IMG/VR virus record: IMGVR_UViG_3300003177_000003
Span: 1 to 39,556 of that record
Reading direction: 5' to 3' (one strand)
Source of the DNA: a virus
Length of the DNA: 39,556 bases
The notes under the pieces are model-generated. The model did no database searches. It was not told the origin of the DNA and saw only the letters and a list, made by a program, of their open reading frames with translations. This document shows, piece by piece, positions 13,115-31,368 of this stretch. Position 1 is the stretch's first letter. The number at the start of each line of letters is the position of its first letter. Made by a program: the position numbers and the translations under genes.

Positions 13115-13293
13115 AGCGCCTGAGCTGTTTTTTAGGGCTGCATCATTGGGATTATTGGGTACACACCCGCAGCTGCTCATGCTGCCGTATCACACAATAC
13201 AGCAACAACAATAGGTGGAGTCTCATATACCGCAGTAATACACCCAGCCAATCATCGCAGACGCAGTTGCAGGGGGTGAATCATGGCGAGTAA
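13111..13293 (+). CDS. Small protein with DUF1660-like zinc motif
   Basis: This 60-residue protein starts MKRLSCFLGLHHWDYWVHTR followed by SCSCC. The order C, G-x-H-x-W, then paired cysteines resembles the short phage/prophage DUF1660-type proteins (Cys ... GHxW ... CxxC). The second half is Ser/Gln/Asn-rich and probably disordered. It overlaps the recombinase gene downstream by 11 bases. A zinc-binding role is likely; the biological role is unknown. Confidence 0.45.
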   Translation: MKRLSCFLGLHHWDYWVHTRSCSCCRITQYSNNNRWSLIYRSNTPSQSSQTQLQGVNHGE

Positions 13294-13942
13294 AGGATTT
13301 ATCAATCCATCGTCGCGAAAGTTTTTTGACCGCTATTTAACCCATGGTGAAGAGAAAAAACTTTATGCCGCCGTCAAACGTGTGGGTGATGTGTATGCGC
13401 AGCGTGACTTTGCTTGGATGATGCTCATTCGTCAGACGGGTATCCGTGTTGGGGCGTTATCACAACTCACCCGGCACGATGCCTGCCAAGCGTTAGCCAC
13501 TGGCTACCTTGATCTGAAACCCGAAATCATGAAAAAGAATCAAGGTTTGCGCATTCATCTTAACACGACGGATAAACAGGGTCGTGTGAGCGCTCAAACA
13601 GCTCTGCAACGATTGCTTGCACTGCATGCCCAAATGCATGGTGGTGATGATCCAGATAGTCCGTTGATTTTATCGCGCAACAACAAAGCGATGAGCATCC
13701 GCTCCTATCAATCGCGCATGGCAAACTGGTGCAAGGAGGCAGGCTTAAACGTGCCAGCCACACCGCATTGGCTACGCCATACCTGCGCCAAACGATTGTT
13801 ATCCAACAGCACCAGCACCAGTGAGGCTGGAAAGCTGCAAATTATCAGCGATCGGCTAGGTCACAGCAACCCCCGCAGCACCGCCTTTTACACCCTGCCT
13901 GATAAAGCCACATACATGCAATGCATTGAGGAGTCCTCATGA
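13283..13942 (+). CDS. Minimal tyrosine recombinase (catalytic domain only)
   Basis: This 219-residue protein holds the full tyrosine-recombinase catalytic set: Arg55 (QTGIRVGAL), His162 and Arg165 (HWLRHT), His194 (RLGHSN) and Tyr203 (STAFYTL). It lacks the N-terminal core-binding (SAM-like) domain of about 100 residues found in XerC/D and phage integrases, so it is effectively only the C-terminal domain. It sits in the middle of the early operon, overlapping both neighbours, rather than beside an evident attachment site. It may act in dimer resolution, in inversion, or as an accessory recombinase. It is one of three recombinases in this genome. Confidence 0.85.
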   Translation: MASKGFINPSSRKFFDRYLTHGEEKKLYAAVKRVGDVYAQRDFAWMMLIRQTGIRVGALSQLTRHDACQALATGYLDLKPEIMKKNQGLRIHLNTTDKQGRVSAQTALQRLLALHAQMHGGDDPDSPLILSRNNKAMSIRSYQSRMANWCKEAGLNVPATPHWLRHTCAKRLLSNSTSTSEAGKLQIISDRLGHSNPRSTAFYTLPDKATYMQCIEESS

Positions 13943-21146: not shown

Positions 21147-21341
21147 GTGAGACATACTGATCTTGTGCTCGGTACATCGGTTGGAAGTGTACCGATAGAT
21201 GCGGCTGAAGATGTGCTATCGTTGTTGATACAGTTGGATCCTGCACCCTGCAAGGAACCGCTGCACACACCAAAAGAATCAAGCGAGGTATCACATGGAT
21301 GCAGCAGCAACGTACACCCGATCAAGCACAGATCGCAGTGA
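21147..21341 (+). CDS. Doubtful small ORF upstream of the serine recombinase
   Basis: GTG 21147 opens 64 codons that overlap the serine recombinase start by 47 bases. The product has no recognised motif, and the overlap is longer than others in this genome. An inverted repeat lies within it (21169-21195). It may be non-coding DNA holding regulatory or attachment sequences. Confidence 0.2.
   Translation: MRHTDLVLGTSVGSVPIDAAEDVLSLLIQLDPAPCKEPLHTPKESSEVSHGCSSNVHPIKHRSQ
21169..21195. repeat. Inverted repeat TCGGTACA...TGTACCGA upstream of the serine recombinase
   Basis: Two perfect 8-bp arms (21169-21176 and 21188-21195) are separated by 11 bases, about 100 bases before the recombinase ATG. 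It is a candidate operator or recombination site; no T-run follows, so it is not a terminator. Confidence 0.55.
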
Positions 21342-22833
21342 TGGCGCATCGATAGCCGCACAAAATAGAGTGAATATGCGGGTGGCGCGCGATTTAAAGC
21401 TGCCAATCATCATCAAGTACTCCGATGTTGTTGAATCAGGGAAGGATCCTTTTCGCCCAGACTTTCAGAAGCTTCTAGCGGACATGAAGCATTTGAATCG
21501 TGGTTGGAACACATTGATTATCTACGATACGAGCAGGTTGTTCCGTGGTCAATTTTATGCGCAGATGTTTAAGCGCGATGCCAAACGCCTGGGCATTCGC
21601 GTTATCTTTTCAACCATTCCAGAAGGTCTGGATGATATTTCGCGCAAGATGCTTGAGAGCCAGTTTGAAGTGTTTGATGAAGCACACTCGATGATTTCAA
21701 AGAAAAAAGGCTTGGCGGGCATGGCTGAAAACGTGCGAGCGGGATTCAGGGCAGGGGGGCGAGCGCCGAACGGTTATAGGCTGAAACACCATGAAACGGG
21801 GGCTATTCGTGATGGCAAACCTGTTTTGAAGGCAACACTGGAGATCAATGATGATGCATCCATGATTTCCCGATACCTGAAAGATCGTGTCAAAGGATCG
21901 CCACGGCGCATTGCAAAACACCAATACGGCTTACTATGGTCAGAAAGCACGCTTGTTGGCATGGAATGGAATGCGCTTTGTTATGCAGGTCATACAGTGT
22001 GGAATGTATGCAATGAATTTAAGAAAAATGAAGGTTACACTGGTGGTAAGAAGCGTCGTCCGCGCAAAGAGTGGGTGATCTGCAAAGATACGCACCAGGC
22101 ATTAATTACAGATGCAGAGGCGGAGGCTTTGATCCACGCTCTGGAAACAAGCTCGCATTGCAAAGGGCGACGAAGCACAAGTAAACATCTGCTTGTTGGA
22201 TTGCTTAAAACACCATCTGGAGAGGTATGGAACGGGGAGGCAGGAAAGCATTACCGAACAACCGGGCGATGGTTAAACATGCAGGATGTGGATCGGCAGA
22301 TATTATCAGGGATTATGGCTGATATGCAGTCGAGAAGGTTCGTCCGCGCAATGCTCAAAGCCTCAAGAGCAATGAATCCAGCCAAGCCAATACCAGGCGA
22401 TGACATACGGTTGAAAGAGCAACGCGTCTCTGAGCGCATCTCTAAACTTCTATCCATGGCCGAACACCTAGAAGACCCTGCTCCATGTTATCGTGAAATT
22501 GATAAGCTAGAACAGCAGCGCAAATCATTCGCCCAACAGATCGTTCAAGTTCAATCCGAATACGAAGAACAGTCAGCCATCTCAAAACTTAGCGAAAGCA
22601 CCATTCATAAGATGCTACAGCGATTATCTGACAATATAGAAAAGGTTGATAGAGCAACGTTAAAAACGTTGCTCAATAGACTATGCGAAAAAATCCTGCT
22701 CGACCCGGAAACGCTAGAGTGTCAAATACACTATAGCATCCGAGCCGATAACAGGATTAATTTGGCGTCCCCAAGGGGATTCGATACTAATCCTGTGCTC
22801 AGGTATTCAACTGAGCTCAAACTCGCTGCGTGA
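21295..22833 (+). CDS. Large serine recombinase / integrase
   Basis: This 512-residue protein has the resolvase catalytic domain with YTRSSTDRS (nucleophile probably Ser11) and IIYDTSRLFRG (catalytic Arg motif), then FEVFDEAHSMISKKKGLAGM linking to the recombinase domain (RAGGRAPNGYRL). A helical, coiled-coil-like C-terminus lies at about residues 360-460. The region that normally holds the zinc ribbon (LLVGLLKTPSGEVWNGEAGK) has lost the paired cysteines. Such proteins catalyse attP x attB integration. Whether this is the phage integrase or part of an inserted element is unclear because a tyrosine recombinase lies next to it. GAGG lies about six bases upstream of the ATG. Confidence 0.88.
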   Translation: MDAAATYTRSSTDRSDGASIAAQNRVNMRVARDLKLPIIIKYSDVVESGKDPFRPDFQKLLADMKHLNRGWNTLIIYDTSRLFRGQFYAQMFKRDAKRLGIRVIFSTIPEGLDDISRKMLESQFEVFDEAHSMISKKKGLAGMAENVRAGFRAGGRAPNGYRLKHHETGAIRDGKPVLKATLEINDDASMISRYLKDRVKGSPRRIAKHQYGLLWSESTLVGMEWNALCYAGHTVWNVCNEFKKNEGYTGGKKRRPRKEWVICKDTHQALITDAEAEALIHALETSSHCKGRRSTSKHLLVGLLKTPSGEVWNGEAGKHYRTTGRWLNMQDVDRQILSGIMADMQSRRFVRAMLKASRAMNPAKPIPGDDIRLKEQRVSERISKLLSMAEHLEDPAPCYREIDKLEQQRKSFAQQIVQVQSEYEEQSAISKLSESTIHKMLQRLSDNIEKVDRATLKTLLNRLCEKILLDPETLECQIHYSIRADNRINLASPRGFDTNPVLRYSTELKLAA

Positions 22834-23431: not shown

Positions 23432-24436
23432 ATGAGCGATCAACATAGTGCATTTATCGATAAATTCTTATTGCATAAGGAGATTAATGAAGGGCGTTCG
23501 CCGCGAACGTCTGACAAATATAGGCGATATTTAATCAAGCTTGAGCGCTTTCTTGGCGATACTCCGCTCTGTGATGTGACGAGAGACCGGTTGATTGATT
23601 TCACAGGCATGCATGCCCACAAAGAGTTAAATCTGTCGCCATCGGCAAGGAAGCCATTGATTTCATCGGTTAGAATGTTTTATGCCTGGTTAACTTCGAC
23701 AGGTGAGATTGTTGAGGATCCAGCAGCTGATATACCGTATCCAAAGAGTGGTCGCCCGTTGCCTGTGGCCATGCAGTTATCTAACGCTGAAAAAATACTA
23801 ATGGGGCCTGATCTTGGTACTTTCATTGGCGTGCGTGATTTGGCTATTCTCAGTGTGTTGCTTGGATGTGGACCTCGTGTGAGTGGGGTTTGTCGGCTAA
23901 ATGAAAGTGATCTTATCTTTTATAAAGATGATGAAGTTGAGCACTTGGCCATTCGATTTGTTGAGAAGGGAAAGCGAGAGCGGATATTGCCAGCACCGCT
24001 AGATACGCTGCTGATGTTGCGTGCGTACATGGGGCATCATGAGCTGGACGATATAGATCGCTCTATTGATGGCGATAAAGTGCTGTTTGTTTCAACGAGG
24101 AATAGGTCTATTCCCGATCATGAATATAATGGGGAGAATAGGCGGATTCATGCGAAAACGATTGATAGGCTTATTAAGCGGTATGGATCTGCAGCTGGGA
24201 TACCATGTGACCAACTGTCAGCGCATTCTTTTAGGCATTTGTTTGGCACAGAGTTGGCAGAAGATGATGTGACCACGATCATCATGCAGAGCCTTATGGG
24301 ACATGCGGATCCTAAGACTTCGGAAATATATGCTCACCTTGCCATGCGTAAGCTGCGAGCTGTTGTGAGTAAGTCGAATCCCCTAGCTAAGATAAAATCA
24401 CCAGTGAGCGGGCTGCGCAACATTATTGGCAAGTAG
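23432..24436 (+). CDS. Tyrosine recombinase / integrase (XerC/D-like)
   Basis: This 334-residue protein has both domains of a tyrosine recombinase. A SAM-like core-binding region (about 5-100, KYRRYLIKLERFLGD) precedes a catalytic domain with Arg149 (GCGPRVSGV), a possible beta-hairpin Lys in FVEKGKRERILP, His265 and Arg268 (AHSFRHLFG), His291 (LMGHADPKT) and nucleophile Tyr300 (SEIYAHL). TGGAGGG precedes the ATG by seven bases. The AHSFRHLFGT form is typical of XerC/D and Xer-like phage integrases, which may use host dif-type sites. It follows the origin-like region and copy B of the 28-bp repeat. Confidence 0.9.
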   Translation: MSDQHSAFIDKFLLHKEINEGRSPRTSDKYRRYLIKLERFLGDTPLCDVTRDRLIDFTGMHAHKELNLSPSARKPLISSVRMFYAWLTSTGEIVEDPAADIPYPKSGRPLPVAMQLSNAEKILMGPDLGTFIGVRDLAILSVLLGCGPRVSGVCRLNESDLIFYKDDEVEHLAIRFVEKGKRERILPAPLDTLLMLRAYMGHHELDDIDRSIDGDKVLFVSTRNRSIPDHEYNGENRRIHAKTIDRLIKRYGSAAGIPCDQLSAHSFRHLFGTELAEDDVTTIIMQSLMGHADPKTSEIYAHLAMRKLRAVVSKSNPLAKIKSPVSGLRNIIGK

Positions 24437-30294: not shown

Positions 30295-30323
30295 TTGCAT
30301 TGCTTCCGAAAAGGGAAGAGAAT
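30295..30323 (+). promoter_or_regulatory. Possible promoter and operator of the acr-aca candidate operon
   Basis: TTGCAT (30295-30300) and GAGAAT (30318-30323) are spaced by 17 bases. Between them lies the inverted repeat CTTCC-GAAAAG-GGAAG (30303-30318). Aca regulators bind inverted repeats in the acr promoter, so an IR in the spacer is the expected place. The promoter match itself is weak (three and four of six), so this is tentative. Confidence 0.4.
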
Positions 30324-30329
30324 ACACAC

Positions 30330-30650
30330 ATGGCGAGACGAGACACAAGGTCAGCCAAAACACAAATAGAGGTGATTGAAATGCCATTTGATAATTTACC
30401 AATAGAATTACAGGAAGAATTAAAAATAGAATCGGCTTGGTTTATCAGCTCATTAAAAAGTGATGATGTGCAATATATGCGAGATTCAGGATATACAGAT
30501 ATAGAAGTATTTGTTAAGTTTGTCCAAGAAGACACGTCACCAAACATTGACTGTGGTGAATTTCATTATGAAATATCATCGTTTGAAACAGCAAGCGGTA
30601 ATCCTCAAGTTTCGTCAATTTCAGAATCATTATATAATGCTATCGTATGA
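30330..30650 (+). CDS. Candidate anti-CRISPR protein (small acidic, upstream of Aca2-like gene)
   Basis: ATG 30330 gives 106 residues; an in-frame TTG at 30300 is less likely. The product has a short basic start (MARRDTRSAKTQ) and is then strongly acidic: I count 20 Asp/Glu against 8 Lys/Arg, with PIELQEELKIESAWFISSLK and a Ser-rich C-terminus. No family is recognised. It is more AT-rich than its neighbours, pointing to transfer. Its stop overlaps the ATG of an Aca2-like gene. The locus lies between the Mu F-like and Mu I-like genes, as acr genes do in Pseudomonas Mu-like phages. Acr function is inference from this guilt-by-association; a different moron is possible. Confidence 0.6.
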   Translation: MARRDTRSAKTQIEVIEMPFDNLPIELQEELKIESAWFISSLKSDDVQYMRDSGYTDIEVFVKFVQEDTSPNIDCGEFHYEISSFETASGNPQVSSISESLYNAIV

Positions 30651-31111
30651 ACAGCACCGAACTCCAAGCTATTCGCCGCCACCTGTTTTTTTCGGTGGCG
30701 GAAGCTGCACGCCTGATCTCGCACACGTCTGAGCGTGCCTGGCGCAATTGGGAGCATGGCATCGCGCCTGTGCCTGCTGACGTAGCTGAAAAAATGTCCA
30801 GCCTGTGTGATTGGCGCAGTGAGATGATCGACAGCATGGATCGTTTTTTGGTCAATGCTATCGAGCGCAACAAATTCAATGGCATGGGCATCTTGTGGTA
30901 TGCCTCAGCCGATGATTATGTTTCCTTACCAGATCGTGACTTGATTCAATGGCGACCGCACTGCTCTGTTATTGCTGAATTGGTGGCGAATTATGATCTT
31001 ACACTGGTTCCTTTCGACGAGGAAAATTATCAAGGTTGGCTAACAGATCACGGCTGGAAAGATTCCGAGAAGTTCCGCAGCCAGTGGGCAGGGCACAAGT
31101 TGGATGGGTAA
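30647..31111 (+). CDS. Aca2-like autorepressor (YdiL/DUF1870-type HTH)
   Basis: This 154-residue protein begins MNSTELQAIRRHLFFSVAEA and continues ISHTSERAWRNWEHGIAPVP, then an 'EKMSSLCDWRSEMIDSMDRF' helix and later a C-terminal domain with LIQWRPHCSVIAELVANYDL. This matches the pattern I remember for Aca2 and the related YdiL/DUF1870 proteins (ELQAIR...VSEAA...S.RSW..WE.G...VP), including the domain after the HTH. Aca2 represses transcription of acr operons through an inverted repeat at the promoter. The overlap with the upstream gene (ATGA) and a terminator at 31193-31218 define a two-gene unit. Confidence 0.82.
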   Translation: MNSTELQAIRRHLFFSVAEAARLISHTSERAWRNWEHGIAPVPADVAEKMSSLCDWRSEMIDSMDRFLVNAIERNKFNGMGILWYASADDYVSLPDRDLIQWRPHCSVIAELVANYDLTLVPFDEENYQGWLTDHGWKDSEKFRSQWAGHKLDG

Positions 31112-31164
31112 TGTGTGTAGCTTCCCTTGCTATAATTTTGAACTGCGCTTATGATACACACATA

Positions 31165-31321
31165 GGGGCTTCAAAACTCTTAAGCGCGGTACCCATGGCC
31201 GTAAACCATGGTTTTTTTGTGCCTTGAATATGGCTCGATAATGTTCGGGGTGGTGTGATTCTATGCAATAGCCTTCGGGTAAAGTTTCACGCGCCGTTCC
31301 GCTTACGGTTTTGAACACCCC
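31165..31321. other. Structured intergenic region with long imperfect inverted repeat
   Basis: The arm 31165-31186 (GGGGCTTCAAAACTC and on) is an imperfect reverse complement of 31300-31321 (CGCTTACGG and on), with about four differences over 22 bases. The 113 bases between hold the terminator at 31193-31218. A second nested stem is CGGGGTG (31246-31252) with CACCCCG (31316-31322), and GGCACC/GGTGC-type arms lie at 31322-31340. Possible meanings are a leader RNA for the following gene, a packaging or recombination site, or a remnant of the insertion that brought the acr-aca unit. No RNA family is recognised. Confidence 0.45.
31193..31218 (+). terminator. Rho-independent terminator after the Aca2-like gene
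   Basis: CCATGG (31193-31198), a seven-base loop, CCATGG (31206-31211), then seven T residues. It lies 82 bases after the Aca2-like stop and should insulate the acr-aca unit from the capsid genes. Confidence 0.82.
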
Positions 31322-31368
31322 GGCACCCTTCAAAAGGTGCTTATTCAAATAAATAAGCGGAGGCCTTC

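Follow-up and report, generated by a model that had tools for sequence, protein, structure and literature searches.

A candidate anti-defence operon under an Aca2-family repressor among the head genes of a phage

The virus record IMGVR_UViG_3300003177_000003 (39,556 bases, the whole of which is here called the window) carries a small operon at 30295-31218, between a minor-head F-like gene upstream and a Mu I-like protease gene downstream, in the order promoter, small acidic gene, HTH gene and terminator-like hairpin. An earlier note had taken it for an anti-CRISPR (acr) gene, encoding a small protein (hereafter the cargo), with its Aca2-like repressor. The features of the locus are:

30295-30323, plus strand: sigma-70-like promoter (TTGCAT, 17-base spacer, GAGAAT), recognised from its sequence and shared spacing
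30303-30318, no strand: predicted operator, the 16-bp inverted repeat CTTCCGAAAAGGGAAG with arms CTTCC/GGAAG, lying between -35 and -10
30331-30357, plus strand: leader RNA hairpin (TGGC..GAC / GTC..GCCA), candidate second repressor-binding site by fold z and position
30369-30374, plus strand: Shine-Dalgarno sequence GAGGTG of the cargo gene, conserved in two related loci (L002, L007)
30381-30650, plus strand: cargo gene, 89 aa, pI 4.05, orphan; by operon context a candidate anti-CRISPR or other anti-defence protein
30647-31111, plus strand: Aca2/YdiL-family repressor, 154 aa, with a C-terminal DUF4447-like extension (Pfam, PDB and fold matches)
31193-31218, plus strand: terminator-like hairpin and T run, not above chance on its own

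The two genes do overlap, as had been claimed, through an ATGA at 30647-30650. The terminator said to close the operon is present as a hairpin with a T run, but such sites are no more frequent than in shuffled sequence (1 found in the operon region versus 1.7 expected). The supposed AT-richness relative to the flanking head genes applies to the cargo gene (GC 0.32, third positions 0.20), but not to the HTH gene (0.51, similar to the flanks). Of the proposed Mu-like neighbours, the I-like protease has a Pfam match (PF10123), whereas the F-like protein was named from position and motif and has none. The phage also encodes tail genes, a primase and three recombinase genes (13283-13942, 21295-22833 and 23432-24436; one with a tyrosine-recombinase Pfam match, one of the large serine type and one further integrase), and no transposase was seen among the phage proteins scanned. 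It therefore seems not to be a transposable phage of the Mu type, and its likeness to Mu, judged by gene content, appears limited to the head genes. Adjoining the operon, at 31244-31332 (plus strand), there is a match to the Rfam family sRNA-Xcc1 (RF02221; 44.9 bits, just below the curated cut-off of 53; E 5e-7 in 300 bases). The family is known from integrons, transposons and plasmids, and the match here is in a phage; it was not found in five related phage loci.

A profile search of 30647-31111 bore out the family proposed for the second gene: the protein matches Pfam PF08965 (Aca2_YdiL, DUF1870) at 9.3e-23 (81.1 bits; cut-off 23.8), and among PDB sequences the solved Aca2 proteins come out on top (2e-17 for the best, weaker for the others), with YdiL at 2e-7 and SO3848 at 6e-4. 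Its structure model (pLDDT 89) finds Aca2 as its best Foldseek match (7ezy, 6e-9; also 7vjo and 7b5j), SO3848 following after the Aca2 structures. Arg30 in the recognition helix, which is required for repression by the Aca2 of phage ZF40 (PMC8434428), is kept, and is invariant in the alignment with ZF40. At the level of sequence, membership of the Aca2/YdiL family is thus firm. In a tree of 18 family members the window repressor forms one clade (97/93) with its nearest relatives, those of L002 (74% identity) and L007 (42%); this clade lies inside a poorly resolved fan with Aca2 proteins, and E. coli YdiL is placed elsewhere on a long, weak branch, a resolution too low to place the repressor in Aca2 proper. 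Classical Aca2 lacks the C-terminal extension of the window repressor. A genome scan gave no relatives of the latter, and whole-genome samples yielded either nothing or just two distant matches.

The inverted repeat that had been noticed in a possible promoter indeed lies between TTGCAT (30295-30300) and GAGAAT (30318-30323), and by chance the 110 bases ahead of the start would contain a repeat like this in a promoter-like context with a probability of 0.002. The operator of L002 differs from it by one base and that of L007 reads GTTCC..GGAAC, while the 17-base promoter spacing is common to L002, L007, ZF40, Pmp12, CFP3, Photobacterium and Serratia. A strict rule (i.e. a promoter-like pair enclosing a 5-6-5 inverted repeat in the bases before the cargo start) was applied to 13 Aca2-like operons with a cargo gene, from phages, plasmids and viral contigs, and was passed by 9 of them, against 0.21 expected from shuffles. 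In three of the four failing operons a palindrome is found at the same place, missed by the rule; the failures include a Streptomyces phage and a Streptomyces plasmid, whose palindromes have CTTCC..GGAAG arms, and the repeat of a Photobacterium plasmid (L038) reaches 4 of 5 under the rule. Stand-alone E. coli ydiL did not pass. Most of the further viral Aca2 loci fetched later also have the operator at this place, although their repeat-to-start distances are less independent, since the start codon was picked partly with the help of the repeat. The two Streptomyces operons (L042:600-770, of phage Gilgamesh, and L043:400-605) carry acidic cargo beside their promoter palindrome, and with them the operon anatomy extends past the proteobacteria.

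The same anatomy bears on where the cargo gene starts. The earlier note had read a 106-residue protein from the ATG at 30330, which was rejected as the cargo start: this ATG sits at about the expected transcription start and at the hairpin, has no Shine-Dalgarno sequence, and would be only 11 bases past the repeat. In L002 the equivalent upstream frame stops at a TAA ahead of the cargo start, and in L007 at a TGA within the Shine-Dalgarno stretch, so that the ATG belongs to the leader. A start at 30381, behind GAGGTG, gives a distance of 62, and with the window counted in this way the distance is 54-62 in 11 of 12 Aca2-like loci; from these sequence comparisons the cargo is most likely an 89-residue protein.

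Between promoter and Shine-Dalgarno sequence, the window leader forms a predicted hairpin (fold z about -3.9). A hairpin 3' of the promoter recurs over eight loci (combined Fisher p 5e-8), and twelve loci, examined over a slightly altered stretch, give p 6e-7. Its position is conserved across loci, but the classical Aca2 motif is not: a covariance model (R1) built on the classical Aca2 leaders of 13 loci failed to detect the leader of the window, which scored 5.9 bits (E 5.4 in 1.3 kb). The Aca2 of ZF40 reportedly represses itself at the RNA level too, binding RNA as well as DNA and blocking translation. An Aca2-RNA complex has been described (PMC11239489). By analogy, RNA-level autorepression by the window repressor is plausible, a leader hairpin lying at the corresponding position.

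As had been claimed, the cargo is an acidic protein (17 acidic versus 4 basic residues, pI 4.05) that fits no family: nothing significant was found in Pfam, NCBIfam, PHROGs, PADLOC, PDB, phages, plasmids or viral contigs. Comparison with known Acr families likewise gave no homolog, and the structure model, made without an alignment, was poor (pLDDT 62) and returned an empty Foldseek search. As a positive control, AcrF8 was recovered in Pfam at 7.7e-64; AcrIF9, however, is absent from Pfam and was recognised solely by the PDB search, so that absence from Pfam alone means little. What the cargo does share with anti-CRISPRs is its setting: it is small, and its operon, carried by a mobile element, includes an aca gene.

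More can be learned from the cargo of other operons. L002 and L007, the loci of the nearest repressors, lie in other phages and at other genomic places; they keep the operator and leader, while their cargo is unrelated to that of the window, with no significant similarity between any two of the proteins. L002 encodes two acidic proteins of 164 and 95 residues (pI 4.05 and 4.15) between the terminase and portal genes of another phage, and L007 a 111-residue protein (pI 7.9) behind a holin-like gene. The cargo in CFP3 has a pI of 9.3, that of the ZF40 operon is AcrIF8 (PF25699) and that of the Photobacterium plasmid is AcrIF9 (5e-39). Cargo that changes in this way while repressor and operator are retained is characteristic of anti-CRISPR operons. 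Two viral contigs also carry recognisable cargo with an Aca2-like repressor, namely an AcrIF9-like protein in L050 (53%, 6e-23) and an AcrIF8-like protein in L053 (53%, 1e-28).

The place of insertion was surveyed in viral relatives found by the portal protein and in seven relatives from genomes (marine gammaproteobacteria and assorted MAGs), by comparing the interval between the F-like and I-like genes. This interval is short or empty in L011, L015, L017, L021, L025 and L027, the first three having the site empty. Elsewhere it is occupied by F proteins extended by HExxH-bearing tails of two dissimilar kinds, by a HEPN gene, by membrane proteins or by an HTH gene. The genes at this spot in relatives thus proved variable, as had been anticipated, and by sequence comparison the interval is an accessory-gene site. 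In Pseudomonas Mu-like phages, acr genes lie in a low-GC variable region (PMC4378225). The F-like head proteins with extra HExxH-type C-termini (L008:4041-5786, L013:2276-4021, L010:8332-10143 and L014:8350-10137) are each followed by a small gene; at the operon's own site, these tails and small genes resemble polymorphic toxin tails of the MuF type and their immunity genes. In the same interval, L010:10348-11383 has a TPR-like gene followed by one with a HEPN domain (PF05168, 6e-6), two genes that may form a defence or toxin pair carried by the phage, and L026 holds a membrane protein gene.

If the cargo is not an anti-CRISPR, it could be a DNA mimic, or an inhibitor of that sort, acting on restriction or some other defence system under the control of an Aca2-type repressor. 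Its composition, the equally acidic cargo of L002 and the missing Acr homology are what such a protein would lead one to expect, but the identifiable cargo in such operons consists of type I-F anti-CRISPRs, and the pI values of the L007 and CFP3 proteins make clear that acidity is not an operon rule; on balance this explanation is unlikely. Considerably less probable is an accessory gene that serves the virion or lysogenic conversion (e.g. decoration or superinfection exclusion), on which Aca2-like control would be incidental. The gene does lie between head genes, where related phages place other kinds of gene (the HEPN gene and membrane protein mentioned above), yet its own promoter and autorepressor set it apart from the late operon, and repressors of the same kind with the same kind of operator carry AcrIF8 and AcrIF9.

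Least probable of all is a toxin-antitoxin pair in the order of HigBA or MqsRA (i.e. a toxin followed by an autorepressing HTH antitoxin). The gene order and overlap would suit it, and the DNA-binding domain of the HTH protein resembles HigA2; this resemblance (E 0.04) is, however, confined to the HTH part, while the fold over its full length is that of Aca2 (E 6e-9). Moreover, the cargo is acidic and matches no toxin family, and whereas a toxin would co-evolve with its antitoxin, relatives have unrelated proteins in its place.

It seems, then, that the reading as an acr-aca operon stands for the Aca2-type repressor, the operator and the layout, all of which are well supported, but not to the same extent for the cargo, which has no homolog and is linked to anti-CRISPRs by association. 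The repressor alone does not decide the matter, given that just 3% of Aca2-like proteins are encoded downstream of a known acr gene (PMC9410906). This published rate lowers the odds of an anti-CRISPR, whereas the phage location, the matched operator, the cargo exchange and the site raise them. By its association with an Aca2-type operon, an anti-CRISPR is the single likeliest defence-blocking role for the cargo, though with somewhat less than an even chance, while an anti-defence function of some sort is likely. Overall, the locus is probably an accessory operon of the acr-aca2 kind that regulates itself and occupies a variable site among the head genes of a temperate phage, with a cargo that would most likely act against host defence.

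In such an operon, the promoter at 30295 would fire upon phage entry and the 89-residue acidic protein would be made, most likely blocking a host defence. The co-translated Aca2-family dimer would then occupy the inverted repeat in the promoter spacer and turn transcription off. It could in addition attach to the leader hairpin and prevent translation, like the Aca2 of ZF40. Should the cargo indeed be an anti-CRISPR, new families would be represented both by this protein and by the three cargo proteins that the sister loci encode. The fullest version, in which the orphan founds a new anti-CRISPR family, L002 and L007 add three more, and one Aca2 subfamily with the C-terminal extension acts on the CTTCC repeat to control transcription and on a new type of leader hairpin to control translation, is rather unlikely. 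Regardless of the cargo's function, Aca2-like operons combine a small cargo gene with a palindrome inside the 17-base spacer of the promoter, most of the loci having a leader hairpin too, and this fixed anatomy, with its 54-62 bases from repeat to start, can be used to detect such operons and correct their start codons, even if cargo and repressor are remote from anything known.

Of the known systems, acrIF8-aca2 of Pectobacterium phage ZF40 is built in the same way, with a small cargo gene before an Aca2-family repressor, a 16-bp inverted repeat between -35 and -10 at 17-base spacing, a leader hairpin between promoter and Shine-Dalgarno sequence, and a start 57-62 bases past the repeat. The window cargo, however, is unrelated to AcrIF8, the window repressor is 40% identical and 38 residues longer, the repeat is CTTCC..GGAAG instead of GTTCG..CGAAC, and the leader hairpin has another sequence, without the second hairpin over the Shine-Dalgarno sequence. 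The AcrIF9 operons (Photobacterium damselae plasmid p1, i.e. L038, and viral contig L050) share the operon order, operator place and leader length, but have AcrIF9 as cargo and a repressor of classical length. The anti-CRISPR loci of Pseudomonas Mu-like phages use other Aca families (Aca1). With these transposable phages, in contrast to which the window phage has integrases, the window shares variable low-GC accessory genes among head genes (PMC4378225). Finally, Shewanella SO3848 (PDB 2ox6; DUF4447) is chromosomal, beside an SMI1/KNR4 gene and without phage context (PMC8434428), but it has the same C-terminal extension past the Aca2 core and matches the window repressor in fold over its full length.
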